This document shows, piece after piece, positions 3,348-60,100 of a DNA stretch of 64,000 nucleotides. The translations under genes and the position numbers were made by a program. The stretch is from Heterotrichella gracilis (Eukaryota; Sar; Xanthophyceae; Tribonematales; Xanthonemataceae). The stretch lies in the NCBI GenBank assembly GCA_032358255.1, contig JAULBX010020077.1:1-64000 (forward strand), in the 5' to 3' direction. The notes under the pieces are model-generated. The model made no database searches and was not told the DNA's origin. It worked only from the letters and a program-made list of their open reading frames with translations. Within the stretch, counting starts at the first letter, position 1, and every line of letters begins with the position of its first letter.

Positions 3348-5105
3348 ATGGCCCAAAACCACGCCTTTGGGCCCGAGATAGGCGCAGCCTTCTTACAGTG
3401 GCTAGTGACTCAGCATGACGCGGGGTTCGATGCCAACGCCACCCACTGCTTTGACTCCACTGCGCTGTATGGGTTGAAGGACATCCGGTGCAGCAAGGGG
3501 CGCATGCAGTGCACCATGCCCGTGGGGGAGCGTGTCCAAAATCGATATGGGACGCTGCACGGGGGCTGCATAGGTGAGTGACGGGGTCATGCAGTTGTTA
3601 TAACAGGAGTGTAAGCAGATCTAGGTTATGTCCAATGTATTGTGGACACGCGTGTTTGCACATCTATATGCATGCGTATGGACCAATGAGCTGCTGGAAC
3701 CCATCGGGACGCAGGTACAGCGGTGTGATGTATGGTAACCCCTTCATGCAATTGCTCATGTCCCATGAGTACTGAACATGGGTCGGAAATGCACGCCTCA
3801 GCTGCAACTCACCACCCACACCCCCACCGCGTGGCCCCTCCCCCACCCCCCCACCCATTAACACCAACCATTCACCCCTGCAGCCTAGTGCGTACGGTCT
3901 CACCTAGGCTCCATCTCATCAGCTTCATACGCATGTCCCACTCCCCACCCCACCACCATCCTCCGCCGCACACCACCACCACCGCCCACCCCACCCCTTG
4001 TAGCTACCCTTGTGGTCACCGTAACTAGCGCCGCCCTGGCCACCATCTCTGATCGCTCCACTACCCCACTCCCACCCAACCCTCCACTCACCACCCACCG
4101 CACCACCCGACCCCACCCACCATCATCCACCCACCACTACCCTCCATTCCCCCTGCGACCTCCCCTCACCCCCCACCCCAACCCCTCGCAGCTACCCTAG
4201 TCGACACCGTGACAAGTGCCGCCCTGGCCACCATCTCTGAGCGCACCGGTGTGAGCATCAGCATCAGCACAGACTACCTCACAGCCATGCCGGGGGGCGA
4301 GGACGTGGAGATAGATGCGCAGGTGAGTGCAACCCTAAACCCTAAACCCTATGGCCCTATGGCCCTATGGCCCTATGGCCCTAAACGAGGACGCGGAGAT
4401 GGATGGGCAGCTGGGTACCTGGCCCTGCGTGTTCGCCCTCCTGTGCGCAAAATGACTTTTGTTGCTCATCCCCCTGCCAATGCATTGAATCGCATAAAAA
4501 ATCCTGGACCTTGGACGGCAATCCCTTTCATACATGCCCTACCCAGCAAATGCCAATAGACAGAAGATGAAATGGATGCACCATTGCCATGCTCAACATC
4601 ATGGCCCTAAACCCAGCAATGATGCATCATCGTCGCTCAAATCCTTAACCCTAGACATCTGTACCCTAACGCAACTCCCTTAACCCAATGGCCCTAAACC
4701 CTAATGGTGCACAAGCGGTGAAGGTTGGGCGCACCCTGGCCACTATCAATTGCGGCCTGTTCCAGAAGTCAGCAGGGTTCACGAGTTAGGGTTGACTCCT
4801 TTGGCAATCCTAAACCCAGTAATGATGATTTATGGTCTCCCAAAATTCCTATACCCTAGACAACAGTACCTGGAACCTAATGGGCCCTAAACCCTAATTG
4901 TGCGCAGGTGGTGAAGGTTGGTCGCACCCTGGCCACCATCAAGTGCGACCTGTACAGGAAGTCGACAGGGCAGCTGGTGGCGCAGGGGAAGCACACCAAG
5001 TTCATGTCACCCACGGAAACGGGAATCACCGAGGGCATGCGCCAGCTGGCGAAGGCACAGGCAGAGGGCACTGCGGACGCGTCGCAACTACACGCAAAGT
5101 TGTGA
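3348..5105 (+). CDS. ACOT13-like hotdog-fold acyl-CoA thioesterase
   Basis: Exons are 3348-3573, 4192-4322 and 4908-5105, with phases joining cleanly (185 aa). The protein matches the thioesterase superfamily member 2/ACOT13 (PaaI-like) hotdog family, which hydrolyses medium- and long-chain acyl-CoA. Visible signatures are NRYGTLHGGCIATLVDT around residues 65-81, carrying the hotdog HGG motif and the catalytic Asp region, a strand SISTDYLTAMP, and the C-terminal strands GRTLATIKCDLY and GKHTKFM. The chosen ATG at 3348 gives a normal-length protein. An in-frame upstream extension rich in Pro exists but is not needed. No obvious transit peptide is present, so a cytosolic or mitochondrial site is open. 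Its introns contain decayed second copies of exon 2 and exon 3 starts, and the 3' flank contains a copy of the gene end. Confidence 0.9.
4002..4057 (+). repeat. Exon echo: copy of thioesterase exon 2 start
   Basis: Intron 1 contains a near-copy of the acceptor and first ~50 bases of exon 2 (compare 4191-4246), including the run GCCGCCCTGGCCACCATCTC. A few substitutions are present and it lacks the rest of the exon. It is not expected to be coding because the real copy at 4192 continues into the conserved domain. Confidence 0.85.
4705..4777 (+). repeat. Exon echo: copy of thioesterase exon 3 start
   Basis: Intron 2 contains a degraded copy of the first ~65 bases of exon 3 (compare 4899-4973), including GTGAAGGTTGG and GCACCCTGGCCAC. 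The flanking CCCTAAACCCTAA linker that precedes the true exon also precedes the copy, so the duplicated unit includes intron sequence. The copy's acceptor is mutated (CACAAG rather than CGCAG). Confidence 0.85.
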
Positions 5106-6239: not shown

Positions 6240-9200
6240 TCACTCCTTCTTCACCAGGCACACCACGCACTTAAACGCCCCCTCCCCCTCCATCCCCACC
6301 TCCAGATCTAGATCTCCATGCACACCCACAACCTCAAAACCGGTGAAGTGGGCCAACAGCTGGATCTCCTGCAGCACAAACAACATATATAGATGAATTA
6401 TTCTTAAAGTAACTGAGGCGTTTCAGTACTTCAACATTTAAGCCGGTGAAGTACGCATGCAATTGAATCTCCTGCGACACATATGAATCCCAACATTAAA
6501 ACAGGAAAAAGGTGAACACTTACTGCGCATGCAGCTGGAACTCGTACACGGCACACAGCGGGTAAAACTTACAAAAAGTAATATAACATAGATAATAGTA
6601 TATGTTGAATGGATAGAAATATAGTGCAGCCTGCTCTCCTCCAACTGGCAGAAGGGTGAAGGAAGAGGAGGTAGAGTAACACCCCCTCCACACCCACCTG
6701 CAATCATGTACTGCCACCCCCGCCACCCACCACACCACCCACCTGCATGGTGTACTGCCGCTGCTGCACAACGTCCTCTGCGCATTGCACCACCTCCGTC
6801 CCCTGGTACAGCGTCATGCCAACAGTGCGGAACAGGACCTGCAAGTGTTGGAGTTAGGATCTAAGGTTTCAGGCTTTAGGGCTGCTGCTTCGCACTGGTA
6901 CAGTGTCAGGCCATTGCTCCCTAAAACCTAACTTACACCCTAGCCTCCCCACCTGTGACAGCGGGCCAAAGCCCCAAACTCTAATCCGCAAACCCTAAAC
7001 TCTGGCAGCAGATCCAAGCAACCCTCACCCTCTGTGGCGACTCTAAACCCTAGAGTCAAGCCCTACACCCCACCTGTGACATGGGGTCGAAGTAGTCCTC
7101 CGCCCTCCCCCACTCCACCAGCACGCGCTTGTCCCCTTGCTCGGCATCCCAGGCATCGGAGTAATCGGGGCTGCTGGTCTCCATCTGGCCATCAAACAAA
7201 TCCCAGGGATGGGGCAGCTCGATGACGAACAAACCCCCAGGCTGCAGCGCTCTGGAAGGGGAAACAATACAAGATGGGTGGGTTGCAGGGTGGCGACAGG
7301 TGGCAGTGACAGTTAATATGGACAAAAACCAGGGTTTGAATTGAGAGAGAAAGTAGACATTGGTATCCATCTGGCCGTCACACAAATCCCAGGGGCGGGC
7401 AACGCGATGATGTCAACCCACAGTGCATGCACACCATAAGCCCACCTGTGCATGAGAATGACACAACCCTAGACCTTGAACCCTACACCTCATGCACACC
7501 TGTACCCGCAGCGCATGCACTCCTGCACACCCTAAACCCTAGGTCCTGAACCCTCGACCCAAGGGCCCAAACTCTAGGCCACAGACCCTGCACCCTGGAC
7601 CCACCTGTGTACGCATCGCATGCACTCCAGCGCGTCCTGATTGTCCCGCAGGTGCGCAAAGGTGCCCAGCAGGCAGGCAGCAATGCTCACCTGGTCGCCA
7701 TCCTACACAAATGGGGGTAGCATTTGGATTGTAGGGTTTGGGGTGCGTAACTGTGCCCAGGAGGCAGCCAGCGATGCTCACCGGGTCGCCATCCTACACA
7801 AATGTGGTCACCATTTGGAACCTAGGGTTTGGGGTGCGCAACTGAGCCCAGGAGTATCATGATGGTGTCACATGATTTGACTCGCATCAATCATCATGTT
7901 GGTTCAGCGAACCACGCATGTGGTTTAGTGTCGTGTCATGGCGTAGGTGATGCACTCCATTGACCCCTAGACCTTCGACGTTACCCTTGTTAGCCCATGT
8001 CCCCCAGCCACAAGTTGACCCGCACCCCAACATTCGCCCTGTCGCGCGCAGCCAAACCCTAAACCCTAAGCCCTACACCCTTACCGTCACCCTGAAATTG
8101 GCCATGCACGTCTCCTAGCCAGAAGCTGACCTGCATCCTACACCCTACACCCTACACCCTCACCGGTACTCTGAAGTTGGCCATATCCCCAAGCCAAAAG
8201 TTGACCTGCACCCCCGCCTCCCTGGCCCTGTCACGCGCATACTCCAGCATCTCCTCTTGCAAGTCCAGGGCATATGACTTAATGCCCTGGGCGGCAATAG
8301 TGGTGGCATGGTGGGCCGGCCCGCAGCTGCGCATGGCGACGGGAGAGGGTCAAGAAGCTGACAGGGTTTAGAGTCGTGGCGTAGTGCAGGGGGCATAGCT
8401 GTGCAGAGCAACGGGAGGGTTTAAGCTTAGGGTTTAAGGCATATGACACTATCCCCTGGCTGGCAGTGGTGGTGACATGCTCCACAGGGTTCAAGGTTTA
8501 GGGTTTAGGCATGTGGTTAGGGTTGTGATGGTTACTGTGTAAACAGTAACCATAAGTATAGTCAGAACACATGCCCATCCCATAATAATTGAAGTGGGCA
8601 CGCTGTACAGGTGGCAGAGCATTGGTTGGGGTGCTTCAGGCTTAACACTGCAATGTGCCTATTGATAGGGTCCACCTTCATGAGCTGGGCGTTGTGCTTA
8701 CCCAGTCTAGTGTTGAGGACTGTGATTTAGGGTTTAGGGTTTAGGATGCTCACCCAAGCTCCAGGAAGCTTGCCGGTTGCTCCCCGCCACAGTACTTTTG
8801 GTAGGCGTTGAGCAGGAACTGGGCCTGTGGTGGTGGGTCAGGGCATGCGTCTCATGGCATTGCGCAATGGCATTGGTATTGGGCAATGGCAATGGCAGTG
8901 GCAGTGGCAACGCTTGAGAGGTCATTTACAGCAAAGCACAACATGCGGCAAAAGACAGTGCTGTCAGCACTACATTTCCAAGCGCAAAAACAGATGTTTT
9001 AGAGCGTTGAGCAGGTACTTGACACGCAGGGTTTGGTATCAAGCTCTGAGTCATGGCAATGCGCGGCACCCTGTCACACATTGCAATGCACCCACAACAG
9101 AAGGTGTCTAACACGTGGTCTATCCAGCTGCATTCCAGGATATGATTCTTATCAGCATTCACCCTTAGTTTGTTTCTTACCTCTTGTTGGTAGTCCCTGT

Positions 9201-9930: not shown

Positions 9931-12900
9931 ATGTCGACCGCGTTCCACCGCAGGAACGCCGATGCGGAGCTCGAGAAGAGCCGGGTTATGCACGGCAAAG
10001 TCAAGCGGTACTGGCCGGGCAGGGCCCCCGACTGGGTGCAAGATGAGCAATCCGAAGAAGACGATGAGGCTCAGCAAATGGACCAAGACGAGGCCTCTGA
10101 CGAGGAGGAGGCCCAGCCCGTGCGCCTGGCAGCGCCAGTGGTGGTGAAAAAGGCAGACGACCCTCGGTTACAGCGCCTGGCACAGCTTTCTGGGAGGGGC
10201 GACGGTGATGCAGCGGCCACGAGGCATAGGGAGGTGGCAGCGCCCCAGGTGGTCAGGCGTCATAGGGAGGAGGTCAGCGAGGAGGAGGAGTCTGCTTCGG
10301 AGCAGGGGAGCGAACAAGAAGAGGAGGAGGACGATGAGGAGGCGATCGCAGCTCGCCGTGCAGCTGTTCGGGAGAGGTGAGAATTGTATGTGCATGCATT
10401 ACATGCATCAGTGGGGACCACATTGCAGGGGATTATACAGGCTGACACTTGGCAGGGGCTTTTGAAACAGACGGGTGCATGACTTGGGGCTTTTACTGGT
10501 GGATACGTCTCTGGGTACTATCATGCATATGCATGCATATGGATATGGGTTTGTATTGGCTGGAGTATACTGCCATGGTACAAAAGATGGCTACAAGGCA
10601 GTACCAGGCAGGGTGTGGAGAGAAACAATCTGGGTTGTTGGTCTGTGTTGGGACCTTTTGGGGGACCATGTGACGTTCACTGCCTGAAACCAGTGCCTTG
10701 GGGTTGCGTAGGTTGAAGCAGCTACAGCAGAAGGTGGAGGTACCATTGCTTGATGCGGAAGTGGAGGAGGAGGAAGAGGTGCGGGTGACGTGCATTTGGC
10801 ATACATCCAGGATTTTGACACTAACTTTTCCATGCATTTGGGGGTACCGTGGTTGAGCGCACGCGCACGCAAGTTTTGCGCTGAACATGGGCATGGAATC
10901 CAAGCACAACTTGGTTGTTAAGGGACATCTTGGTGTGGCTCAACTGTGTGCACCCTCCCGTTACAGGAAGAGGACAGCTCAGAGTATGAGACCGACTCTG
11001 AAGAGGAGGGCTTTGGGCGGCAGCGCATGAAGCCCGTGTTCGTGCCACGGGGGGAACGAGAGGTGCGGCATGCACCAACTGCTTTGCAACTCCTGGGCTG
11101 CATGCCCACACCTGTATGCCATTTGCACTCCCATGCCCAGGGACAAATCACCTTGACCTGTTCCACCTTGTCTTGTATGCTGACCACTAAAAGTGACTGA
11201 TAGTAGCACCTTCCCAGGGTAGACCACATTGTGGCGATCATCCCATGATTAAATGTGGCTTGTAAATTGGCTTGTGTACCAGCCGACTGAGTTACAGTTA
11301 TACCGTACGTCAACCTACATCCAGAACCCCAAATCGTTACCCCGATACCCTAGACCCTAAACCCTGTGTGGCCTGCATGTCAGACCATCGAGGAGCGCGA
11401 GAGGTTGCTGAGGGAGGAGGAGGAACTGGCGGAGAGGGAGAAGGAGCGACTACAGGAGCGAAAGGTATGCGCCCTAAATTATCAACCTAACCCTATACCC
11501 TAAACCCTAAACGTGAACCCTAAGGAGCTGGCAAAGAGGGAGAAGGAGCGGCTGCAGCGGAGCGGCAGGTGTGAGCCCATGATCTTAAACATACACCCTA
11601 AGGAGCGGTGCATGAGCGGAAGATATGTGCGCAACGAGACCACTTGCTTGAACTGCATCGGAGGGCACTGCAACATGGGGGCCTTGGGCAGTGCCAGTGG
11701 GCGCCACATGGCAGCGCATGCATAAGGCGAAGCTGACTTGGGACGGCAGTGTTGCATGGAGAGTGTAGCAAAACAGCACTTGCAGGTTGGCCTTGCATTG
11801 CGGGAAAAGATCACCCAGCATAGAGAAACAGGGAGTGCATGCGTGAGAAACAATGACACGTTGGTGCAAGCAATGAAACGGCTTGTGACCAAACTTGAGC
11901 ATTGCCTTTGCAGAAAGAGACCAAGGACATTGTGGTGCAAAAGATAGTGGACGACGCCAACGCTGCCAATGCAAGCACCATGGCCCCGCTGGATGTGGGT
12001 GACATCGACACTGATGACGAGAAGGATGCGGAGGCAGAGTTTGAGGCGTGGAAGCGGCGGGAGATGGCGCGTATCAAGAGGGACAGGTGGGGGTGTGGGG
12101 GTTGGTGTGGGGGTGGACTTTGTTGTGTGGTGTGTGGGGGTTAAGGGGGAGATGGCGCGGATAAGAGGGACAGGTGTGGGTGTACAGGGGTTGGTATGGG
12201 GGTGGTGGGGTGTGGCGTGGTGTGGCGTGGTCGAGTTGGTGTGGGGATGGTGTGCGGGTGGTGGGGTTGGTGGGGATATGGGTGGGAGACGGCGCGGAGG
12301 GAGAGGGACAGGTGGGGGTGGTGGGGGTGCATGATGTGGGTGGTGGCGGTGTGGTGGTGGGTTGTCAGATGGCGCGTATCAAGAAAGACAGGTTGGGTGT
12401 GGGGTGGCTGGATGTTGGGTTGGGGTGGGGTTTGATCTTCCCCATGATTAGGGGGGTAGGTGGTGCGGGTCAAGAGGTTTGGGTGCGGGTGCATCGGGTT
12501 GACAGAGATGAGGTTGTTGGTATGGGTGTGGTGTGGTGGGGTAGGGGTGGGAGATGACGAGGATTTTGGGGGCAGGTGGTGGGTGGGTGGGTGGAGTTGT
12601 GTGGATGACAGGCACTTGGGGATGGTGATGACGGCGCTTGGGGATGGTGATGACGACCAATGAGATGCCCTCCCGGTGCAGTGGCATGGCCCATTCCCAT
12701 GCCTGTCCACGTATGATGTATTCCACTTGGAAAATGCCCATGCATGTGTTCGTCCTTTGCCACGACGTACATGTTCCCTCCCTGTTGTGGTCATAACGTA
12801 AGCCTGTGTTTCCCTTCCCCCCGCCAGGGAGGAGCGCGAGAAGGAGCTGAAGGAGCTTGAAGAGAAGGAGAAGTGGAGGAACATGAGCGAGGCAGAGAGG

Positions 12901-14117
12901 GAGGAGTACCTGCGCAGGAACCCCAAGGTAAGACCCTAACAATACATTAGCAAATCCTATGTGAACCTTAACAGAAGGGAAAACCTAAATCTTAGAGTGG
13001 TGCAACATGAGCACGGCGGAGAGGGAGGAGATAGGAAATCCAATGTAAAACCCTAAGTGAACCGTAAGTAAACCCTTAAGTTCAAACTCTAATGTAGGCG
13101 CAACGTGAGGGAGGCAGGTGCACAGGGGAAGGGGCGCCTTGTCCACCACTGTTGGAACCTAATGCCGCTCTGCAACCCTAAAATGGCTCCCCTGGCAGGT
13201 CATGGAGCAGATCAGCAAGCGGGAGTGGCGCTTTCCTGAACTAAATACTAAAGGCCTCAAACCCATGGCCCCGGTTCCAGTGTAATGAAGGGCGTCAAAA
13301 GGAAGCAGCGCTTGTTCAAACCCTGGAACCCGAATTCCTTCAACCCTAAACCCCAATGCCCCGTCCCGCAGGTGATGGAGCAGGGTACCAAGAAGAAGTG
13401 GCGCTTCTTGCAAAAGTACTGGCACAAGGGCGCTTTCTTCCAGGACACGGAGGATGCAACCTTTGGGGAGGCAACCACGCGGGAGGACGCGATCTTTGGC
13501 AGGGACTACTCTGCGCCCACTGGGGAGGACAAGCTGGATCGGTCAATCCTGCCAAAGATCATGCAGGTGGGTGGGGATGGTACAGTGTGGTGGTGGGATA
13601 CCGGCATGGTGTTTGGGGTGGTGGGCGGTTGGGGGCTGGTGGTGGGTGGTAGCGACTACTCTGCATCTGTTGGGGAGGACAAGCGGGATCGGTCCATTCT
13701 GCCAAAGATCAGGTGGGTGGGTATTACAACTTTGGGGGGGGGGGTGATTTTTGGTGTAAACAAAATGTACGAACAATGTGATTGTACACAGTATGCAATT
13801 CAGCGGTCAGAACATGATAGGACGAGATTATTGGAGGGATTACTGTGCGACTCATGCATTTCAGAGAAATTCCAGCCGATTTGGCCGAATCCCAGCCTGC
13901 GGCACCCCCACCCCGGCTTTGCAGCTGTTAACAGGGCTGTGTGTGCTCTCAGGTCAAAAACTTTGGGCGGCGCGGCCAGACCAAGTGGAGCCACCTTGTG
14001 GACGAGGACACCACCAACTGGGAGAGCCCCTGGGTGGCGCAGCCAGATGCCAAGGCCAAGAAGAAGATGGCGGGGATGGAACAGATATTCGAGAAGCCCA
14101 AGACCTACCGCACCTAG
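9931..14117 (+). CDS. MFAP1: MFAP1, spliceosomal B-complex protein
   Basis: Eight exons: 9931-10376, 10712-10778, 10967-11062, 11384-11464, 11914-12086, 12828-12927, 13372-13566 and 13953-14117. They total 1323 nt (440 aa), essentially the length of human MFAP1. The first third is a highly charged region with acidic stretches, as in the family. The conserved C-terminal half includes EEERERLLREEE-type coiled coil, DDANAANASTM, DIDTDDEKDAEAEFEAWKRR, KWRNMSEAEREEYLRRNPK, the KWRFLQKYWHKGAFFQD block and GRRGQTKWSHLVDEDTT near the end. MFAP1 is a nuclear component of the precatalytic spliceosome (B complex) needed for pre-mRNA splicing. The 5' ATG has a CCACC context. Introns 4 to 7 contain repeated fragments of the neighbouring exons, mostly G-rich. 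Confidence 0.95.
11516..11575 (+). repeat. Exon echo: copy of MFAP1 exon 4 end
   Basis: This is a near-copy of the end of exon 4 (GAGCTGGCAAAGAGGGAGAA compared with GAACTGGCGGAGAGGGAGAA) inside intron 4, preceded by CCCTAAACCCTAAACG. A shorter and weaker third copy follows around 11597-11630. The copied segment includes the junction with the intron. Confidence 0.8.
12149..12399 (+). repeat. Three echoes of MFAP1 exon 5 end
   Basis: Copies of the exon 5 end plus donor (GAGATGGCGCGTATCAAGAG then GGACAGGTGG) occur at about 12149-12180, 12284-12318 and 12367-12399. The original ends at 12086. The linkers are a GTGGGG-rich, low-complexity sequence that continues to about 12600. Each copy retains a GACAGGT donor-like site, so the intron holds several spare donors. 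Confidence 0.8.
13003..13715 (+). repeat. Echoes flanking MFAP1 exons 6 and 7
   Basis: Bases 13003-13040 copy the middle of exon 6 (ACATGAGC...GGAGAGGGAGGAG). Bases 13196-13240 and 13285-13315 are diverged copies of the exon 7 start (CAGGTCATGGAGCAG; compare 13369-13420). Bases 13651-13715 copy the exon 7 end (GGGGAGGACAAGC...CCAAAGATC) together with its donor. The true exon 7 (13372-13566) sits inside this span. It is identified by continuity of the conserved protein. Confidence 0.75.
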
Positions 14118-19330: not shown

Positions 19331-24265
<4,935 letters not shown>

Positions 24266-46500: not shown

Positions 46501-49500
46501 GAGCGGAGGAGAAAAGCCTGCGCAGAATGCGCGAAGCGCAAGGGAGATGTCTGCACTAACTCACAGTCTAACCCTGAAACCATAAACCTTAATAACCTAA
46601 ACCTGGTTGGGGTTTTGCGCAGGCAATGGAGGCGGAGGGCGAGGTGATCACCCGCATCATGGTCCAGCCCCAGCACTGCCTGCACTTACCCTAAACCCTA
46701 CAAGTACAAACCCTACACCTTACTCTAAACCCTTTTCATTTGCAGGCGATAGAGGCAGACGGCGAGGTGACCACCCGCACTATTATTATTATTATTATTA
46801 TCACCCGCACTAATCTGACCCTAAACCCTAACCTCAAAACCCTTATGCGCAGGCGATAGAGGCAGAGGGCGAGGTGATCACCCGCATCATGGTGCAGCCC
46901 CAGCGCTGCCTGCACTTACCCTAAACCCAATTCTAAAACCCTGCAAACCCTAAACCAAACCCTACACCCTTTTCTTGCAGGCGATCGAGGCTGAGGGCGA
47001 GGTAATCACGCGCATCATGGTGCAGCCCCAGCATTGCCTGCACTACCTGCGCCCAGGGAGGCTCATCAAGGTCAAGAAAATGGGGGCGGTGGAGTGGGGG
47101 TGGGGGGTGGTGGTGAGCGTCATACGACAGGATCCACGGGCGGGGGGAGGGCGCAGGGGGGGAAACGCCAACGGGGCGACTGGTGAGGAGGACGGGGAAG
47201 TGGCGGCGAATTACGTGGTGGATACGCTGCTGGTGTGCGCTCCCGGGTATGGGCCAGGTGCGTCAAACAGTGAAATGCTGAAATAGGGGAGGGAACGGGG
47301 CGACAGGAGTGGTAGTGACAGGTGTATTAAAATTGGAAAATATTCTGGATCCCAATTGAAATCATCCGCAAAGTTTATATCTGAAAATCCTGAATTCCTG
47401 AAGCCCCCATCCCCATGCCCCACAGGTAAGCCCCTGCGCCCCGCGCCCCCCGGGATCGATGGCGAGCTGCAGGTGGTGCCCCTATACCTCACCCAGGTGT
47501 GCGCAATCAGCACCATCAAAATTAGCCTGCCTCACGACCTGCGGCCGCCCGAGGCAAGGCGCAGCGCTTACCTGGCCCTGATGGTGAGGAGGGAAACCCT
47601 GGACCTGAACCCTTGTGAACAATTTTTTCCTCGCCACGTTCACCCACCACTTGTGTCATATGGAGAATCCCATATTGAGGCCTGCACATCGATTATTATC
47701 CCTTCTCTGCACAATCACCCACCTACCGCCTACCACCTTGCAGGAGCAACACAAGCGTTACCCCGACGGCTTCCCCCGCGCCGACCCCATCCAGCACCTG
47801 GCAATAGAAGACCCGCTCCTGCGCACAGCAGCGGCCAAGGTGGCACAGCTTGAGGCGCAGCTTGCCGCCAATGGCATGCTGGCGGGTGCCGGCGGCGGCG
47901 GCGGCGGCGGTGGTGGTGCTGCGCGTGTGGCTGCGCTTCAAAAGCACGCAGGTGTGTGTCATCTGACTATGGAAATGAAATATGATACGGGTGGCGCCGC
48001 ATCTGTCTATGGGCTTTTCGCCCGGGTGAGAGGGGTTCCCGGGGATGGCTACGGCGCTGCCGTCCTTTAGGTGCAATAATAATGATAAAATGAAATCATG
48101 ACAAAACATTAATTAAAGTTAATTAAATCCTGGTTTTATTCTGATGCACGCAGGCTTGATGATGGAGGCCCAGAAGATCCGGGGCCAGATGAAGGAGTCG
48201 GCCACGGCGGAGTTCCGGCGGGAGTCGGCCAATCGGTGAGCTCTAAACCCTCGGCAGGGTTTTGCAATGCCTTAATCCTCCATGCAAACCTCGCAACTCT
48301 ACATGTAAATCCTTGAACCCTGAACAGTTTTTTCTCTTGGAGGTGCATGGGGTATTGCAGCACCAGGGATATCAACCCTAGCTGAAACAAGACATATACT
48401 CCTGACTCCTAATCCCACCCCAATTAAGTTCTCATTTACACCCTGCTGAACCCTAATCCCATCCTCGTGCAGCATCAAGGTCCTCCAGAAGCTTGGCCAC
48501 GTATCAAAAGAGGAGGTGGTGCAGCTCAAGGGGAGGGCGGCATGCGAGGTGGACACGGCACATGAGCTACTCACAGTGGAGCTGCTCATGAACGGGGTGT
48601 TCGCAGGTGGGGGCAGGGGGTGGCAGGTAGAGTTAGTGCTCAACGTACGTTTGTCCCAAGGCTTGAGAAGCATGCCAGGGAAGGGGGGATGAGGATTTGT
48701 AGGAAAATCATTGCTCAAAAACAGGGCAGCGTGCGAGGTTTTACTGCACATTTGCTGTTGTGGGTTCGTAATACACACTTTTGTCCCCCCCAAAATGGGG
48801 GGAAAGTAGCGCTTCACTGAAGTACTGTTGGATAACCTTTTCTCTAGGGTTTTGGGGTTTTTCCTGATCCATTCTCCCCATGCAGGCCTGGACAAGCACC
48901 AGCTTGTGGCTCTGGTGTCTTGCCTGGTCCCTGTTGAGAAGGGTGCCAAGGACACCAAGCTGAGTGCAGAGCTGGGGGATGCGCTGCTGGCACTGCAGGA
49001 CACCGCAAAGTGAGTGGTGGGGGTTGGGGGGTGGAGGTGGTTTGGGTGGCGGAGTGGTGTGAGGTGCCAGGGAGGGGGTGGTAGGGGGGTGTCTGTTAGG
49101 GTAGGGTTGGGCGCCGCGCTGACGGATGTGCTGCTGGCATTGCAGGACATAGTGAAGAGGGTGGTGAGGGTCCAGGGTTTAGGGTTCTTGTGCTCCTGTG
49201 CGCCTACTCTGCCTCATGGCTGGAGCGTGTGTATTCACGCGGCTGGCATGCTGGAACCGCCCCCTCCCACACACATCCACGCTGCCCCACATACGCACAG
49301 TGCGGTCCACCCAGCGCACACGCAGTCACCCACCCTACACACACCGCCCCACCCCTGCGTGCAGGCACATAGCGGAGGTGCAGGCGGAGTGCAAGCTTGA
49401 CATCAAGACAGACGAGTTTGTTGCGCAGTTCAAAGCAACGCTCATGGACCCCGTGTACGCATGGTCAAAGGTGCGCAAAATGCCTTATAGGGGCTTTGGT

Positions 49501-50182
49501 GCACTTGATAGGAACCCTTAGATAGGGTTTGTTGCGCAGTTCAAAGCAACGCTCATGGACCCAGTGTATTCCTGGTCAAATGTGAGCGGGAAGTTGTTTA
49601 GGGTTTAGGGTTTTCAGGGCGTGCGCCAAACCTTAGGCGGGGATTTGGCAGAGGAATGCCCACCCACATGTGCACATTTCCGCAGATAAGCGTATACTCT
49701 GCATACAAAGACACCGCATGTAACAGCAGCAACGCGAAGAATGCTGCAAATACCGTCTGAAATGGTATTTTGACGTCATGGTACAATTGATATATGACTC
49801 TTCCCCCTGCCACCAACCCACCCATCACCATAACCTCACCCATCCCACCTTCCCCACAGGGCATGTCGAAAGTCATTTCAAATGTCAAATCGTTTAACTA
49901 TCTCTGCAAGTCCTTCTCAGTGTGTGCATGGTGGCGTATATATAATTTATTACATTTATTCCATGTGTTGTGTAGGGCAAGACCTTCAGCGAGGTGTGCA
50001 AGGTGGCTGAGGGCATCTTCGAGGGCAGCATCATACGCGCAATGCGGCGGCTGGACGAGCTCATGCAGCAGCTCACGCGGGCAGCGCGCGCCATAGGGGA
50101 CGAGACCCTGGCGCAGAAGTTCGAGGAGAGCAACCTGACCATCCGGCGGGACATCGTGTTTGCCGCCTCGCTGTATGTGTGA
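40583..50182 (+). CDS. MTR4: MTR4-type RNA helicase of the nuclear exosome
   Basis: Eighteen exons: 40583-40778, 41086-41177, 41395-41540, 41899-42012, 42599-42875, 43063-43198, 43669-43834, 44428-44680, 45014-45228, 46015-46270, 46981-47257, 47426-47583, 47744-47951, 48154-48235, 48473-48606, 48886-49009, 49365-49470 and 49976-50182. Total 3147 nt (1048 aa), close to human MTR4. Motifs: Walker [10 protein letters not shown] (K112), DEVH box (D197-H200), FLSATLSN, and motif [12 protein letters not shown] (~502-511). Then come an arch/KOW region ([10 protein letters not shown]) and a DSHCT end ([27 protein letters not shown]). MTR4 unwinds RNA in TRAMP/NEXT-like complexes to feed the nuclear exosome. 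A Gln/Gly-rich insertion sits in exons 6-7. Intron 3 uses a GC donor. A 100-N assembly gap lies in intron 9. Nearly every intron carries partial copies of its own exons. Confidence 0.93.
41570..41640 (+). repeat. Exon echo: copy of MTR4 exon 3 end with its GC donor
   Basis: Bases 41575-41640 copy 41486-41551 (GTGGTGTACACCTCGCCCAT, then AGCAACCAGAAATTCAGGCA). The unusual GC donor (CAG|GCAAGG) is conserved in the copy. Copy and original are joined by ACCCTAAACCCTGAACCCTA. Confidence 0.92.
42126..42350 (+). repeat. Two echoes of MTR4 exon 4 end
   Basis: Bases 42137-42200 (ATGCGGCTTGCATGGGTGTG, then ACCACAAGGATCTTCCGCTG) and 42302-42350 (ATGGCCTGCATCGGCATGAC) resemble exon 4 (41960-42020). The first is the closer copy; the second is short. 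Between them lie CATGCACATCAT-rich linkers. Confidence 0.8.
42940..43015 (+). repeat. Exon echo: interior of MTR4 exon 5
   Basis: TCCGCCATTCTGTCCAACGC and GCGCGCCTGCACATG...GTGTACAAAGAG align with exon 5 at 42735-42815 (TCAGCCACGCTGTCCAACGC), with deletions. It encodes a broken version of helicase motif III, so it is clearly a relic. Confidence 0.8.
43458..43610 (+). repeat. Two echoes of MTR4 exon 7 acceptor
   Basis: CCCCTCCAGGTGGCCCCCCG then CCAGCCGCGATGGCAAGGGC (43461-43500) is a near-copy of the exon 7 start (43661-43703). CCCCGCCAGGTGGCAC (about 43575) is a shorter one. Only the last copy reads on into the conserved protein; the first retains an intact CCAG|GTGG acceptor. Confidence 0.82.
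43985..44315 (+). repeat. Echoes of MTR4 exon 7 end and exon 8 start
   Basis: Bases 43985-44032 repeat the exon 7 end with donor (TTCAACTTCAGCAGAGCGTG; compare 43818-43842). Bases 44176-44215 (GCTGCAGCCAACTAGAGCAG) and 44280-44310 resemble the start of exon 8 (44421-44460). Intron 7 thus contains a copy of its donor exon and two copies of its acceptor exon. Confidence 0.87.
44868..44935 (+). repeat. Exon echo: copy of MTR4 exon 9 start
   Basis: CTTGCAGTGCCTGTTTGCCA and ACCGAGACCTTCGCCATGGG repeat the exon 9 start (45011-45070) with very few changes, including a working-looking acceptor. The preceding intron portions (CCCCAAGTCCCCAACCTGAC and CCCCGCGTCCCCAACTTGAC) are copied too. The upstream copy would encode SMPAHTAN and then leave the conserved sequence, so 45014 is taken as real. 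Confidence 0.9.
45181..45750 (+). repeat. 117-bp tandem array over the MTR4 exon 9 donor, containing an assembly gap
   Basis: Each unit comprises the last 48 bases of exon 9 (CATCTGCATC...GTGCAG), its GTGGGTGG donor, and about 69 bases of intron ending in GAAACCCTACTGAAGGG. The segment CATCTGCATC begins at 45181, 45298, 45415 and 45532, an exact 117-bp period with only scattered substitutions. A further partial unit follows the gap to about 45750. Very high identity means recent or homogenised copies. The true copy number is unknown because the array contains the 100-N gap. Confidence 0.95.
45584..45683. other. Assembly gap (100 N)
   Basis: This is a run of exactly 100 N, the conventional gap of unknown length. 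It lies in the tandem array, so the assembler evidently could not resolve the repeat number. Confidence 0.99.
46330..46560 (+). repeat. Echoes of the MTR4 exon 10 interior and end
   Basis: AGTGGCTGCTGAGATACTGC then TGAACTGTGGGGTATCAAGG with GAGAGTGAGGCCACTGTGCA (46341-46420), and a second copy AGCAGTGGCTGCTGAGATGT (46471-46540), resemble exon 10 at 46160-46260. Both lie in intron 10 and are frameshifted. Confidence 0.75.
46616..46935 (+). repeat. Three echoes of MTR4 exon 11 acceptor with telomere-type linkers
   Basis: The acceptor and first ~65 bases of exon 11 (GCAGGCGATCGAGGCTGAGG) are present at about 46616-46690, 46741-46800 and 46847-46920, besides the real one from 46978. Copies 1 and 3 break off at CTGCACTTACCCTAAACCC, where the true exon has CTGCACTACCTG: the break coincides with a CCCTAAA run. 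Copy 2 ends in a (TAT)n expansion. Confidence 0.92.
49105..49165 (+). repeat. Echo of MTR4 exon 16 end
   Basis: GATGTGCTGCTGGCATTGCA then GGACATAGTGAAGAGG repeats the exon 16 end (48978-49012: GATGCGCTGCTGGCACTGCA). It is followed by GGTTTAGGGTTC. Confidence 0.82.
49525..49620 (+). repeat. Echo of MTR4 exon 17 end
   Basis: TTTGTTGCGCAGTTCAAAGC then AACGCTCATGGACCCAGTGT (49528-49580) copies 49419-49470 at near identity. It ends AAATGTGAGC, so the donor is shifted, and is followed by TTTAGGGTTTAGGG. Confidence 0.92.
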
Positions 50183-50269
50183 TCCAGGGATGCAGTCCTT
50201 GGTATAGGGATTGGGGATAAGGATACTGCTAGCGCGGGATTGTGAGCCACATCCCCGCACCTCATGCGG

Positions 50270-50585
50270 GAATCTAGTGGTATCGGGGCGAGGCGCTGGG
50301 GCAGCACAAGAGGTCCCGAGCCTGACCACCTGGAGGGACATTGTGTTTGCCGCCTCGCTGTATGTGTGACCTGCCAGGGGGATGCAGTCCCTGTGCGGGA
50401 TGGTGGGATCGGCGGGGGACAAGGGGGGTGCATGGGTTTCTGGGCCACGTGCAGCGGTTCGTGCGGGGATCCAGTGCCATTGGGGATGAGATGCTGGCTC
50501 AGAATTCTGAGTGGAGCAACCTGACCATGATGATCCGGCGAGACCTTTGTGTTTGCAGCCTCGCTGTGTGTGTGGGCAGGGGCCT
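50270..50585 (+). repeat. Two echoes of the MTR4 3' end, stop codon included
   Basis: Bases 50305-50400 (CATTGTGTTTGCCGCCTCGC, then TGTATGTGTGACCTGCC) and 50465-50580 (GGGGATGAGATGCTGGCTCA, then GAGCAACCTGACCATGATGA) repeat the last exon and 3'-UTR (50094-50200). The intact gene already ends at 50182, so these are post-stop relics. Confidence 0.88.
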
Positions 50586-50806
50586 ACCTCCACCAGGTGT
50601 AGTGATTGGCAGTTGGCATACACTGCCAGTAACTTGGTGCGATTCATGCGCGCTACCACTGCCAGTCCTGGGTTTGTGGAGAGCAGATTGAAATTAGTTT
50701 ATCCACCTGATGATGTTGCATTCAGCGTTTTTTCTATATTAAACAGTTTGCCTGAAGTTGTAGTTTGCTGTCAGAACATCACCCAGCCATATTGTACATG
50801 CCGTTG

Positions 50807-50932
50807 ATTAAATTTGCAGGCGGTGGGATGCCACCAGTGATCCCAAGTCACACGGTGACGCTGCGCAGCATGATGCGCACTACCATGTAGCTTGTGATTC
50901 ACTGATGGCATCCCACGGCCTGCGAATTTAAT
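50807..50932. mobile_element. Foldback/MITE-like element
   Basis: The arms at 50807-50852 and 50887-50932 are inverted repeats of about 46 bases with roughly six differences (left ATTAAATTTGCAGGCGGTGG; right arm reversed ATTAAATTCGCAGGCCGTGG). The ~34-bp centre includes GACGCTGCGCAGCATGATGC. There is no coding capacity. Size and structure match a miniature inverted-repeat transposable element. A target-site duplication is not certain: the flanks are TTG and TCA. Confidence 0.75.
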
Positions 50933-51654
50933 TCATGGTGCCCAAGTACAGTCAGTAACTGCCACAGTATGCTGACCACCTCATGGTCCACATGCATTCC
51001 TGCGTGATAATCATTCAGGCAACCGTCGTGAACAGTTCACAACCATGAGTTGCATCCATTTAATATTCAAAATTCAGGTACACACTCGTGCGCACCCAAA
51101 GCGCAGGCCGGCTCTCTAGGACTGGTCCAGGAGTCAAGGTTGACAGCTATAGGCCACTGTCAATTGTCACGCACGTACGTTTAATTTGCATGTTGTTGAC
51201 ATGAAAGAAACTTCAAGAAAGGGATGCACAAAGGCAGAGTTAGGCCCCCGAGGGCCCTTTGCTCGCACCAAGGCACCCCATGGGCCAGGCTGTGCAACCA
51301 GGCGTTTTGCCAGAACGGCTGGTCCTGCACAGATAACAAATTGGAATCTGAATGGCATATACCCTATAGCATTGCCATCATCATGGCAAAACACGTATGC
51401 TGGATTGTGGAAGTGGTTCTAGAAGACTTCGAGGGTAGGCCAGTCCTCCTCAGAGCGTTCTAGTACTGTACCAGGTGCTGCTTTCATACCCGTGCCATTG
51501 CTTTAACTATATTAGTATATAGTGTTACCCATCAATGCAATCAATCTGCGGCAGATTCTGAACTCCCCTCGCCCGCACTAAGGGAGCAAGGCTGCAGAAA
51601 CGGCAGGCCGCCGCTACTGTTTACATTGCTGGCTCGGCCCCTGCCCTGTTGGCC

Positions 51655-51705
51655 CCTGTCTCTCTGCCGCCATGTGCTGCTGGAGCTCCATGCGGGCGTG
51701 GGCAA
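51655..51705 (-). repeat. Echo of the SET gene last exon
   Basis: GCCATGTGCTGCTGGAGCTC and CATGCGGGCGTGGGCAA resemble 51810-51848 in the last exon (GCCATGTGCTCCTGGAGCTC). It lies beyond the stop on the gene strand, so it is a 3'-flank echo. Confidence 0.8.
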
Positions 51706-51771
51706 TGGGACATATCATCCCCCCCCACTCCCATTCTCCGAATGCAAGTTTGCTGCCACAATCAGGCACCG

Positions 51772-54700
51772 CTACTGCCCAGCTCGCTGGCTTGCCCCCT
51801 GCCGCTCCTTTGCCATGTGCTCCTGGAGCTCCATGCGTGCCCGGGCAAGGTAGGCGCGCGCCAGCAGCTTCTGGGCCGCGCGGTACACCACACACGCGCG
51901 CAAGGGGCCTGCTAAGCTATCGTCCTGCAATCAACACACAAAGCACACTGAAATCACGGATCTGGGAAATGACGGATGAAAGCGCGGGCGAAAGAGCGGA
52001 GAGAAAACGATTTGACACAGTTAACCAACCACAGGCATTCATTTGCTTGTGATGCAAATTCGTCCCTGGTTGGACAGATCATGGACGCTAGTGGACGCTG
52101 CAAAGCGTGAAATGACCCCGATTAGAATTTCTTTGACAGGTTTGTGGCGACCCACGCCGTAACAGCACCCGGCAGTGCCACCCAGCCTGGCACATGCTGC
52201 CAGCAGGGCCCCGAGACAATCAGCAGTTCAAATGTCAACATCAAGTTTGTCCGATGAAACCAATCTATCTGCAAACAGTGGTGGCATGGCACGTCTAATT
52301 GCTGACCTTGCTGTTCTGCCGGAATGCATGACCTCACTCGCTTACCTGCAACATGCGCATGTCATCCTCCAGCGCCCCCTTCCCCTCCTCTCCCTCCATA
52401 CCAAATACCTTGACCTCAAGCAGGCGCACCACGGTGGTCAGCACAGCCATGCGCAACTGATGTACTTCAACTGCAAGGGGGATGGGGTAGTGGGTAAGCA
52501 CGGATGGCAACTTGGAGGGAAGAGCCGCTTTCACTTGCGCAGAACCACCTGCTAAGACTCGCGTGCTGGCAGCACAGCTTTGAGCATGCGCAGGATTACA
52601 ATTCGTACGCGATCAGACGCGATACATGCTTTTATGGAAATTACTCGCGCAAACCAAATTTTGCAGTGTTTGTAAGAACAAAGGACCGCCTTCTTTTCTT
52701 ATTTCAGTGGAGCATACATACAGGCATGCATTGGATTTAGGTAGCGCACTTGTCGCCCACCGGTCCTGCTCACAATTGGCTGCATTCAGTTTGGCGTGGC
52801 TTCATCGTCCACGAGATTTCCAATTTCCAGACTCAAATTTTAAACCTCATTGGTTTTTGGACGGGCATGGGGAAGGTAGCGCACCAGGCGGTCGCTGCAG
52901 CGGCTTGCCATTGGCTGCCTCCAGTGCCTGCAGCTCCTCCGCCAGCTGGCGCGGCTCCATCATCATGACCTCCAGGGTGCGCACCACATCCTGCACAAGG
53001 GTTTCATTAGGGTTCCCATGTGGGGGTTTGTTGGGGTAACCACAAGCCTAGGGTTTATATGAGGGTTTTTTACACCTACACCACATCCTGGGTAGCATAC
53101 AGGGTTTGCTCAATTAGGTTTTCAACACACACCACACCATTACAGGCTGCCAACGAGGAGCCCATCAGAGTTTCCAATTCGAGCCACAAGCCTGAAACCT
53201 CAAAACCCTGCACAACCCTGTACCCCAAACCCCTAAACCCCCCTCACCTGCGGGATTTCAGCTGCCTCCCATTGGCCCTGCTGCAGCAAGGGGGTGGTGG
53301 GGAAGAAAAGCTGCGGGCGCAGGCCAATCGCACCCAGGATCCCCAGCCTGGCACCCATCACGGGGTCCTGATCCTCTGAGGGGGGCAGGGGGAGCGCAAC
53401 CATGAGCTGGTCGTGGGGGTTGCCCTCGATTGCAAACCCTGCAGTAGGGTAATCGATGGGTTAGTGTTACTCACAGGATTTGACAATCCCCATGTTCAGA
53501 AAAGATGTGCACATCGTGATTGGTTACAGCAGACAGCAGCATAGTGCAAGGGAGGGCTATGGAGTATCAAGGGGGCCGCGGCACGGCTAGAGCACAAGGG
53601 GAGGTACCACAATCACAGCAGGCTCGGAGGAACAATGGGAGGGTACAAAAAATAAATAAAATAAATAAATAACTACGCAGCCTGTCCTTGAGAGGCTACA
53701 CATCAACAGCTGGGGACGGTTGGGGAGGTACCATATGCAAACAGCAGCTCCTCGTTGCTTTTCTGTCCATAGCTGATACTGAGCTCAGTCCCCGGGACTC
53801 GGACCGCCATGTCGCACACCAGGCACACCTGCGTCTGGGACCAGGTGGGGGGAGATGCCCAGTCAGTGATTTTATTGGTTATATCATGTAACCTCTGGCA
53901 ATCTCGGCAACTTGCTTGACTAAATCAACATTGGCAAGCGATCGGCATGAGAAAGCTATTTAACCTGCCAGGGTTCTGACTGCTGAAGGTGCTGTGCTGT
54001 AAATAATCGGTATTGCGGCTGTAAACATAATTGTGAATGTGATTGTGATTGTGATTGACAAATAGTGTCACTGTACCTGGCTCTTCCCGCACACTGACCA
54101 TGCACCGTAATTCTATATTAAATGCAATTTGCGGTTGTATTTACAATTTTGATTGCTGGAGCATGTCAGTATGCAAGGCAGGGGACTGTGATCGCAACAA
54201 TGGATAGTATAAGTGTAATCGTATCTGGCAATAGCTGTAATTGTGATTGTCACTGTACCGTACCTGGCTCTTCCCGCACACTGACCATGCACAGGATGGG
54301 TCTGCCCGGTGGTTGCAGAAGTCCAAGCCGGTCACTATCCCCTCCTGCATTTCTTCCTTGTCCCCCCCTCTCAACCCTTGCACAGGGATGTTCATGCCTC
54401 GGGACCTACACAGGGACTAAAAGGTAAATAGGCTTTCTTATTGACATGCGTCTATAAGCATTACAGCCACATGTTTGTCTGTAAAAATGTACTCCAGCAA
54501 TATGTGCACAACCCCAGCACCCCTGCCCCCCCATCCGTCACACCCACACCCCCACCTAGTACCCCCCACCCCCACGCACAGTACCCCCACACCCACCCAC
54601 AGTACCCCCCACACCCACCAGAAGATGGTGCTTGCCCACATGAGGTCCTGCAGGCTCAGCTGCCTGCTGCAACCCCCCGCCGATAGCAGTCGGGAAGCTA

Positions 54701-57105: not shown

Positions 57106-60100
57106 ATGCAGACTACTGTCGCGCGGGTGCCTTGCGCAGTCTGTTTCCGACACAATGGCACCAGGCATCTAGCTAGCAGCACTGTGTCAACCAGCGGCTT
57201 GATGGGGGTGCTGCAACGCCACAGAGGTAATGCGGGGAAGTAGCTGGAGAGGTGGTGTGTGACATAGGGTCATACGAGGGAGCGCTAAGTGTGGGCTAGG
57301 GGCCACAGTGGATGCAGGCCCTGCAAGGGCTGGGCTTGCAGCACCCCATAGTTAGCTAGCTGGTAGCACAAACTAACAGCCAACGCATCTGCCAGGCATT
57401 GCATATTGCATCTTGGTGCAGCCATAACGCTGCCCCATTGCAACTTACATCACACACACTAGCCAGGTACATGCTCCATATCAACCATGCCAGCTCCCCA
57501 CCCCACCCACATCATGCTGCTCCAGCACACCCCCACCCACCTCCCTCTTCATCCCTTGCACCCACGTCTTCAATACAACGTGCTGCCCAAACCACGTCTT
57601 CAATACACCATGCTGCCCCCACAGGGCCAACTCTCCCCCGGCAACGGCTACTCCGGCAGCGCACAGCAGCCCAGGCGGATGGCTCAGTGGCCAATGACGG
57701 AACCCTTGACACCGCGCCAGTAGCGGTGGTTGAAAGTGCTGCAGAGGAGGTGGCGACGCTGGCAACTGCCCCCCATGAACAGTACAGCGAGACAGTGGAG
57801 GTGGCGCAGGCGAGGGGGAAAGCGGTGCCTGCCCAAGGGGAGACGGTACAGGTAATGGGGGGAGGGGTGTACCCGTACTGTATGGGTTGTAGGTTGTATA
57901 ACACAGGTGTGGAATGTACTGGGATTGGGCGCTGTAGGGGATGGGAGCAGTGCTGCGCAGTTATGGGCATTGTGCAGGCAATCTACCCTGTGATCTCTAG
58001 AGGGTGCGGACACTGTGCGGTGCACGGCTGAACCCTAAACCCTGCGTGTGGTGCAGGAAGTCAACCTACATGTATGGAAAGTGTACAGGTTGGGCACTGG
58101 TATACATACAGCTATGCGCAGTGCCCGTGCTCCTGCAAGCCTGAACCCTAAAGCCTGGACCCTAAACCCTAAGTCATGTACCCTGAACCCTAAAACCCCT
58201 GCAGAGCGTGCCACCGCGTACAACGCGCGCAAGTCTTCGGGATGCCAACCCTAACCCTAGACCCTAGACCCTAAAACCCCTCTGCCGCAGGGCGTGCCGC
58301 CGGTGCAGCGCGCGCGCGACTTCTTGGACGCCAACCCCGGTGCACGCCTGGGCGCTGCGGCGGCTGCCACCTTCCTCCTGGGTACCTTTGTCATCGCGCT
58401 GGTTCGCTTCACGCGCAAGTACAACTCCCCCCGGGCCAAGCGCGTGCGCAATGTGAACAAGAACAAGCTCATCGTGGAGAGTTTGAACGAGTACCTGCCC
58501 AGCAACCGCTTCGAGCTGACGCCAGGTGCGAAGGGGAAAAGTAACAGAGTGCTCTTGGATGGAAACGGGACGGGGATTGGCTGTGATGCCATGCAGGAGT
58601 GGTGTGGGGGGTGGGTGGGTAGGTGGGTGGGTGGCACACCACACGCATGGTGGCATGTCACCTGTACCATCGTCTGAGGGGCGATGGTCTCTCAAATCGC
58701 ACTCACCCACCCTCTCACTCACCTGCATTCGCGGCCATGCACACCATACCCATCGCACGCCATGTATCCTGCCCCCCCCTCCCCACCCAATCCCACCCCT
58801 ACCTGCAGCTGCGGCACTCGAGCCGAGCATCGCACCGCACCGCACCACACGCACTGCCGCATCGCACCACCGCCCCCACCACGGCCTCCACCACCACCAG
58901 CATCACCACCACCGCACCCACCCCTCACCAACCCCCCACCGCCGCAGCCGCAATACGTGTGATGACTGGATTGAGCGCGGGGAAGGTGCCCCCCATGTCA
59001 CCACCGCCCCACACTTTTGCCCGCACACAACTTACGTACCTCGTGGCATCCCACCACATGCAATGTCATGACCACCACTACCACCACCACCATTACACCA
59101 GCACACCTGCAGCCGCAGCCACGACTACTCCTCATGCGCACCGGGTTCGCCCTTAACCACCCACCACCGGGGCTGCATGCACACCATTCCTCACACACCG
59201 CCCACGCCAACCCCTCCCCACACCATCGACCCCATCGCACCCCCTACCACAGCCGTGCTGGGCAGAAGACTGGCATCACAGCATCATAATGTTCTTCCTG
59301 ATTATGTGATTGATTATGTGATTTGTTCTCCCTGATTGTGTGTTCCCCCCCCCCACCCGCTCCACTCCGCCACCACAAACCCATGCACCCTGCGCGCATC
59401 ACACCACCACGGCACCCACACACACCTACACCTGCGGCCACACACTTTATCAACCCCACCACACAAGCACCCGTTAACTCACTCCACCACGCCCCCACCG
59501 CAGCCGTGGCGCGCGTGCTACGCATGAAGACCGGCTTCAGCGCTGTGGAGGTGTTCCGCAAGTATCTGTGGTTCCTGCTGCGGGAGCGCAAGTTCGACCA
59601 GGAGGCGGTGAATGACCTGGTGTATCTCAAGGCAATCCTGGAGCTCACGGACGAGGAGGTGGGTGGGTGGGGATGGTTGTGGATGTCGGTGAATGGGGTG
59701 GGGTGGGGTAGGAGGGTGGTGTGTGGTGTGTGGGGGTTGGGGCTGGGTGCAGTGGAGTGTTGCGCAAGGATCTGTGGTTCTTGCTGTGGGGGCGCACGTT
59801 TGTTTAGGGAGGCGGTGAATGACCTGGTGTACCTCAAGGCAATCCTGGAGCTCACGGACGAGGTGGGTGGTGGACTGAGGCGGGGGTGTTGAGGGCGGCG
59901 CCTGCTAAGGGTAATGAGATGATAAATACCTTTTCATATAAGATATAGTACTAGTTAAGAATGATAATTATTATATTTCTTAAAAATGTTTCTACTATCA
60001 ATACCCTTGGCTTCATGCACAACGCACTGCTACTGCATATCCATCTGGGTGGGGCACTCAAAGGCATCAATCTGGGCAGCGTCAGTGCATCGCCAGCGCT

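Follow-up and report, generated by a model that had tools for sequence, protein, structure and literature searches.

The stretch of Heterotrichella gracilis DNA analysed here (the window) comprises bases 1 to 64,000 of contig C202 (80,312 bases), in a genome assembly of 68.5 Mb and 903 contigs. From their translations, we take the genes of the window to encode a thioesterase, a methyltransferase, MFAP1, a cysteine synthase, a P4-ATPase or flippase, bZIP and MTR4 (read as one bZIP/MTR4 model), and SET proteins. The MTR4 model matches yeast Mtr4 with an E value of 1.3e-176, and the homologues of a PsbO-like protein bear PF01716 and the PsbO name, the best of them at up to 81%. Many introns of these genes contain partial copies of the edges of their own flanking exons, which we call echoes, and the joint between an echo and its source is often occupied by a short tract of the telomere repeat.

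Gene models were obtained with a two-strand hidden Markov model that was seeded with long open frames and self-trained on the window together with sixteen samples of 10 kb from elsewhere in the genome. The model converged on the donor CAG/GTGNG and the acceptor TGCAG/G (the slash marks the exon border), yielding 406 exons and introns with a median length of 287 nt. Tests were run on 355 of the 383 predicted introns, those of 60-1500 nt that were free of N and had both flanking exons present; 122 of them lie in the window and 233 in the other loci. An echo was defined as an alignment of an intron to its own flanking exon with a score of at least 22. Loci L016 and L023 (G+C 0.35 and 0.38) and L021 (3,274 N) were left out of gene training and of the intron tests, and L004, which overlaps the window, and L001-L003 were not used. 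With the remaining loci at G+C 0.52-0.59, L016 (contig C222) and L023 (contig C433) are possibly organelle or contaminant contigs. Certain models join adjacent genes or read echoes as mini-exons (e.g., 45394-45462 and 46623-46891), so that the counts are approximate.

Of the 355 introns, 66 (18.6%) were found to contain a copied edge of a flanking exon, with 72 echo alignments in total, 39 to the upstream exon and 33 to the downstream exon. The same introns gave a mean of 0.0 over ten draws against exons of other loci, 0 after shuffling, and 2 after reverse complementation, which places the echoes far above chance. The initial annotation had described echoes in nine of the multi-exon genes on both strands and suggested a genome-wide process, and this is borne out: the window contains 30 alignments in 27 of its 122 introns, distributed over 8 of the 9 multi-exon models and both strands (identity 0.72-1.00), and echoes occur in 39 of the 233 introns outside it. 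Its count of at least 40 segments was an overstatement at the thresholds used here, and its claim of an echo at almost every junction was wrong, as 22% of the tested window introns have one. The flippase model has a single echo over 22 introns and the bZIP/MTR4 model 12 over 29. A separate diagonal scan of the window returned 30 exon-versus-noncoding pairs, one of them within a 3' flank. Echo density also differs between loci (chi-square p 0.00017). L014 has echoes in 10 of 17 introns, and 5 loci (L005, L011, L012, L015, and L018) have none in 67 introns, with telomere tracts present there (0.7-3.1% of intron bases); the process is therefore uneven across loci.

Alignment of the window to itself with BLAST, at a threshold of 40 bits, yielded 34 direct and 4 inverted local pairs (less than 2.5 kb apart) and, among distant pairs, 0 direct and 1 inverted; the locally shuffled window yielded 0 pairs of every kind. 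At 35 bits or more, direct and inverted local pairs numbered 40 versus 6 in the window and 86 versus 14 in the sixteen other loci; shuffled sequence gave none. Distant pairs at this threshold were 7 direct and 8 inverted in the window and 8 direct in the sixteen other loci. Exon sequence is involved in 37 of the 40 local direct pairs of the window, 2 of these being exon-exon. Each of the 4 local inverted pairs at 40 bits is a single palindrome, as are 15 of the 20 at 35 bits in the window and sixteen loci together. Palindromes of 68-133 nt and 70-93% identity lie at 978-1045, 18756-18875, and 50807-50932 in the window, at 7944-8041 in L007, and at 5300-5432 in L012, and 13 of the 15 fall entirely within predicted introns or intergenic DNA.

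The echoes are direct, and at most 250 bp separate 68 of the 72 from their source. Among 257 non-redundant direct pairs, 210 have a copy spacing below 260 bp; the copies are thus adjacent, direct, and short in unit, the defining traits of small tandem duplications. An apparent lower limit of about 84 bp on the spacing was refuted by an ungapped diagonal scan, which found spacings down to 13. That floor is probably attributable to the way BLAST handles near diagonals, and nucleosome-sized duplication units were dropped along with it. A splice border is reached by 46 of the 72 alignments, where 4.7 would be expected if they were placed uniformly along exons, and these border-reaching echoes retain GT in 16 of 22 cases and AG in 20 of 24 (36 of 46 together). 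Both the local tandem duplication across exon-intron borders and the copied splice sites of the initial annotation are seen, the former outside the window as well. Most upstream-type echoes (32 of 39) are nearer the donor and most downstream-type echoes (29 of 33) nearer the acceptor. Traced into the intron, the homology forms gapless tandems in several cases and is interrupted by filler in others (median 34 nt, 40 cases), part of which may be decayed homology. Purely noncoding duplications are under-represented in two counts, 18 versus 40 and 61 versus 91 expected. This should in part reflect slower decay when one copy is constrained; identities of 0.848 for noncoding-noncoding pairs and 0.857 for exon pairs do not separate detection bias from a preference for sites.

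As most echoes adjoin their own source exon, the introns that hold them have grown, and echo introns are longer than the others (median 393 versus 257 nt). Intron birth of the AGGT type would leave splice-anchored cross-homology, with the intron end resembling the upstream exon end and the intron start the downstream exon start. None was found in the 355 introns at a score of at least 12. Anchored matches for ends and starts, respectively, numbered 6 and 2 at a score of at least 6, 2 and 1 at 8, and 1 and 0 at 10, compared to 0 and 2 at 6 and 0 and 0 at 8 in a one-shuffle control. Nine of the 72 echoes approach the far splice site to 20 nt or less. The geometry is that of growth of existing introns and not of AGGT-type birth; of the intron gain and growth put forward initially, growth stands, and AGGT-type gain does not.

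Echo identities range from 0.70 to 1.00 over all loci, with quartiles of 0.83, 0.86 (the median), and 0.91, in keeping with the span from near identity to heavy decay reported at first. Mismatch rates between exon and echo at codon positions 1, 2, and 3 are 0.128, 0.108, and 0.222, and 52 of 58 indels in these alignments shift the frame. Third-position mismatches at about twice the rate of the others are what is expected from a free echo beside a constrained exon; for two constrained copies the third-position difference would be far larger. The echoes decay neutrally. Only 8 of the 72 are at least 95% identical to their source; whether the process is active at present is uncertain, and young copies have possibly been collapsed in the assembly.

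The telomere repeats are a new element, absent from the initial annotation. Arrays of CCCTAAA open contigs C70 and C140, from which we take this to be the telomere repeat of the organism. The density of CCCTAAA-cycle heptamers is 9.5 per kb for introns and drops to 0.45 for exons and 1.4 for predicted intergenic DNA (just 16.6 kb of sequence), a contrast present both inside and outside the window. Introns contain 1308 of these heptamers versus 165 permuted heptamers scaled to an equal number of words. The most frequent intron 8-mer is AAACCCTA (175 in 138 kb), and the most frequent non-telomeric one is ATGCATGC, with 114 occurrences in the window and samples. Perfect telomere 16-mers number 3,751 genome-wide (1824 + 1927 by strand, with overlaps counted and true telomeres included), and the reversed pattern gave 0 perfect 16-mers genome-wide. 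As in interstitial repeats left by break repair, these are short tracts of the organism's own telomere repeat, away from chromosome ends and in both orientations.

Echo introns are richer in these heptamers than other introns (19.6 versus 8.0 per kb), and echo presence remains associated with telomere presence after stratification by length (odds ratio 2.32, p 0.006). Both orientations occur together in just 23 introns, where 63 would be expected of independent tracts, and neighbouring introns have the same orientation in 65 cases and different orientations in 62. Uniformity within introns and randomness between neighbours are as expected from separate insertions that were later duplicated and eroded in place, and a gene-wide tract orientation was rejected on the same neighbour counts. 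A bipolar cap, G-rich then C-rich at one joint, was also rejected: opposite tracts seldom adjoin one another (18 G-then-C, 10 C-then-G), and those with less distance between them lack the G-then-C order. Seven of the 355 introns begin G/TAGGGTT, with the tract running from the second intron base (e.g., the window donor 28052 on the minus strand, L011 7458, and the L013 donor 3443 on the minus strand). The exon ends of these seven are ordinary, and donors made directly from the telomere repeat were set aside.

The tracts are concentrated where echo and source meet. A telomere heptamer lies within 30 nt of the joint in 31 of the 66 echo introns, with 12.7 expected (reached in 0 of 2000 placements). 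Tract coverage of the inner 30 nt, on the source side, is 20.7%. Placing the echoes at random within their own introns gives 6.5% (0 of 2000), and the position-matched controls give 6.7% for other echo introns and 3.8% for all other introns (each reached in 0 of 2000). The excess of joint heptamers is present in the window alone (12 of 27 versus 4.3 expected), outside it (19 of 39 versus 8.3), and without L014 (25 of 56 versus 9.7), and it is greatest in young echoes (15 of 22 versus 5.7). The best of 19 control motif families is found at the joint in 5 of 66. Sorted by side, the tract is inner only in 16 echo introns, outer only in 4, on both sides in 15, and on neither in 31; 16 against 4 gives a binomial p of 0.012. 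Filler with at least 7 telomere letters occurs in 14 of 40 border-reaching echoes. The features of the window are collected in Table 1.

Table 1. Echoes, telomere-type tracts, and junction filler in the window
Feature	Position	Strand	Details
Echo of exon start 4192-4247, thioesterase-like gene	4004..4059	+	identity 0.86
Telomere-type tract of AACCCTA and CCCTATGG units, after donor 4323	4331..4386 (end approximate)	+	sequence; tandem repeats 4331-4383
Weak sub-threshold echo of exon end at 4322, directly after the tract	about 4387-4411	+	
Echo of exon start 4910-4970	4717..4777	+	identity 0.85; homology extends into intron part
Echo of exon part 7175-7240, methyltransferase-like gene	7361..7423	-	identity 0.83
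Echo within 91-bp border-spanning tandem duplication, source 7651-7690	7742..7781	-	identity 0.85
Echo of exon part 8181-8239	7995..8050	-	identity 0.84
Degenerate CCCTAAA array between donor and echo	11465..11522	+	sequence
Echo of exon part 11421-11460, MFAP1-like gene	11523..11564	+	identity 0.88
Echo of exon part 12872-12906	12996..13030	+	identity 0.86
Echo of exon end 20535-20577, cysteine-synthase part	20701..20743	+	identity 0.84
Echo of exon end 21070-21109	21212..21251	+	identity 0.85
Junction filler with telomere repeat, between source copy and echo	22671..22702	+	
Echo of exon end 22620-22651	22703..22734	+	identity 0.91
Echo of exon end 30775-30812, P4-ATPase/flippase-like gene	30695..30731	-	identity 0.84
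Junction filler with telomere repeat	30732..30756	-	
Echo of exon end 43724-43834, MTR4	43918..44026	+	identity 0.79
Echo of exon start 44428-44455	44183..44210	+	identity 0.93
Echo of exon start 45014-45083	44871..44940	+	identity 0.87; homology continues through intron part, filler-free
117-bp tandem array: exon end, donor, intron with telomere-type motif	45178..45749	+	97% matches over 45178-45583
100 N inside the 117-bp array, then a further partial copy	45584-45683	+	
Echo of exon part 46157-46265	46335..46432	+	identity 0.79
Three partial echoes (46613, 46742, 46843) of exon starting near 46981	46613..46928	+	two run into ACCCTAAACCC
Echo of exon end 49416-49469	49527..49580	+	identity 0.93
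Echo of exon end 50068-50172	50257..50359	+	identity 0.74
Echo in 3' flank, SET-like gene, source 51723-51848	51565..51705	-	
Echo of exon end 54264-54292	54077..54105	-	identity 1.0 over 29 nt
Echo of exon start 58292-58337 (58206-58251), then filler TAACCCTAG (58252-58260)	58206..58260	+	
Echo of exon part 59542-59594	59749..59800	+	identity 0.87

In yeast Mtr4, both the peptide of the 117-bp array and the exon near 46981 that is the source of three partial echoes are present in a single copy. At the end of the window, 59542-59656 and 59749-59863 are tandem exon copies encoding EAVNDLVYLKAILELTDE, and the gene model uses parts of both; a recent exon duplication there could still be coding. 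An internal duplication at 15083-18075 far exceeds the other duplications in size, with 1,429 aligned columns at 65% identity, a spacing of about 1.66 kb, and several predicted exons. A dispersed short repeat (79-117 bp aligned) is common to introns at 29920-30131 in the window, where the copy has a 21-bp tandem motif, at 6381-6718 in L020, and from 9156 in L018.

We think it probable that the echoes arose when staggered breaks were repaired by end joining, with fill-in and with filler added by telomerase. When a break occurs near an exon border, both overhangs would be filled and the ends rejoined, duplicating the stretch between the two nicks, and the echoes would be the remaining halves of such short tandem duplications, with units mostly below 260 bp. 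Where a splice border had been duplicated, one site would stay in use and the spare copy would become intron and decay neutrally, leaving a longer intron. If telomerase extended the broken 3' end with repeats ahead of fill-in and end joining, a TTTAGGG/CCCTAAA tract would come to lie between the copies. Staggered breaks, telomerase, fill-in of the CST-Pol alpha type, end joining, and the arrival of the tract with the duplication are all steps that we infer. The assembly encodes a TERT RNA-binding domain and a Ku domain (contamination is possible). We propose more tentatively, as something possible though short of probable, that telomerase could be a regular partner in the repair of breaks in transcribed DNA, capping the ends before fill-in and joining.

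Several observations weigh against this account. Telomere heptamers are absent from the vicinity of the joint (30 nt) in 35 of the 66 echo introns, and the joint count of old echoes is not raised (3 of 15 versus 1.8 expected), although their joint coverage still is (9.3% versus 3.3%, p 0.012). Heptamers in the transcript are C-rich in 855 cases and G-rich in 453, and the tracts are missing from intergenic DNA, which is unexpected under purely random breakage. The outer edge of echoes is enriched as well (11.4% versus 5.0%, 1 of 2000), and within the duplicated intron part telomere letters make up 11.6% of the source copy and 9.9% of the echo copy, a density matching that of the filler (8.5%; the rest of the intron is at 3.7%), so that some tracts predate the copying. 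The last two results, and the presence of a telomere heptamer in 123 of the 289 introns where no echo was detected, suit an alternative in which the tracts came first. Here pre-existing repeats would have served as fragile sites or microhomology, duplications followed, and telomerase took no part in the duplication. We regard this as unlikely, if the most serious competitor, given that inner-only tracts exceed outer-only ones and that several young cases have the tract solely between the copies (L013 4667-4910, window 22652-22903, and L010 near 3131); it also leaves the presence of tracts in introns unexplained.

Replication slippage or unequal exchange might instead have made ordinary tandem duplications, the exon-edge pattern then resulting solely from selection and detection, with conserved exon copies keeping border-crossing pairs visible longest, and the telomere repeats being unrelated. 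Small-unit direct repeats do occur in purely noncoding DNA too (61 pairs), and exon-versus-noncoding pairs are just moderately above random (97 versus 79.5), with 50 versus 29.3 for those straddling a border. That telomere repeats concentrate at the joints in both of two independent locus sets, and do so against motif, placement, and position-matched controls, makes this explanation improbable. We give very little credence to the idea that the telomere motifs and echoes are selected functional elements of introns, such as splicing signals, alternative exons, or decoys. Both tract kinds are enriched over the 50 nt that follow the donor and the C-rich kind alone over the 50 nt that precede the acceptor, C-rich heptamers predominate, and GT or AG is often kept, all of which such a role would accommodate; the C-rich excess and the scarcity of G-rich tracts near acceptors may be a secondary effect of splicing. 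However, mismatches extend beyond third positions and nearly all indels shift the frame, and a signal acting in RNA would be expected to keep to one orientation, whereas introns are near even (79 C-only, 65 G-only) and neighbours are random. Least credible of all is an assembly artefact, with false tandem copies arising through haplotype merging or gap filling. The youngest array of the window does contain a 100-N gap (45584-45683), but assembly errors should be near-identical, unlike copies with the observed identity quartiles and mutations partitioned by codon position, and the copies are restricted to direct orientation beside exon edges.

The elements of the repair account have precedents in other systems. 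In mammalian cells, CST-guided Pol alpha-primase fill-in, by the machinery that also fills in telomeres, produces small tandem duplications at Cas9 breaks (Schimmel 2021, PMC8355091). Like the echoes, these are short and direct, need no prior repeats, and are explained by fill-in of overhangs followed by end joining; the passages of that report covered here discuss insertions below 100 bp and no telomere filler, whereas in the alga the copies are intron fossils with larger units and tracts at their joints. Interstitial telomere repeats mark repaired breaks in mammals, and some are accompanied by a duplication, 6 of the 130 cases in rodents and 4 of the 25 in primates (Nergadze 2007, PMC2246262; telomere repeats at mammalian break sites are also described in PMC6410037). 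Those tracts are likewise short, but in the alga they are dense, concentrated in introns, and tied to exon-edge duplication. The 2 phenomena, break-repair duplication (PMC8355091) and telomere insertion at breaks (PMC2246262), are joined here as copy, telomere tract, and copy. For the telo boxes of Arabidopsis and rice, an action of telomerase on free 3' ends in transcribed DNA has been proposed (Gaspin 2010, PMC3022908). Telo boxes share short AAACCCTA motifs with the introns of the alga; they concentrate in 5' untranslated regions (UTRs), with 72 per Mb in rice introns compared to about 1270 per Mb in the alga. A preference for 5' flanks or UTRs was not found in the alga, where the non-genic class (including UTRs) has 1.4 heptamers per kb versus 9.5 in introns.

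Intron gain by tandem duplication (PMC3443670; in potato, PMC4974935) also takes place near splice sites, and in potato, too, the duplicated stretch spans an intron-exon border. In the alga, by contrast, birth-type cross-homology is nearly absent and the introns grew. Introner elements are likewise a genome-wide process acting on introns (PMC9860276), but no element is shared here: 11 of 25 intron-intron hits of at least 40 bits join different loci, and the eight distant hits listed comprise four to the telomere repeat, two to one short repeat family, and two others. No earlier account of telomere-scarred exon-edge duplications was found in the open-licence literature.

To our knowledge, the source of intron sequence is largely unknown. 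In this alga, the copied exon edge dates and locates an event and the telomere tract often marks its joint, making introns a readable record of break repair. If telomerase is indeed a regular partner in such repair, each intron would log its own events as a telomere scar and a tandem copy of an exon edge, and it is this repair, not transposons, that would chiefly drive intron growth. Some introns might then even originate from such insertions into genes, intergenic DNA being free of scars. The record suggests a link between telomerase and intron growth, and the link can be tested directly in a genome that retains the record in nearly one of every five introns tested.

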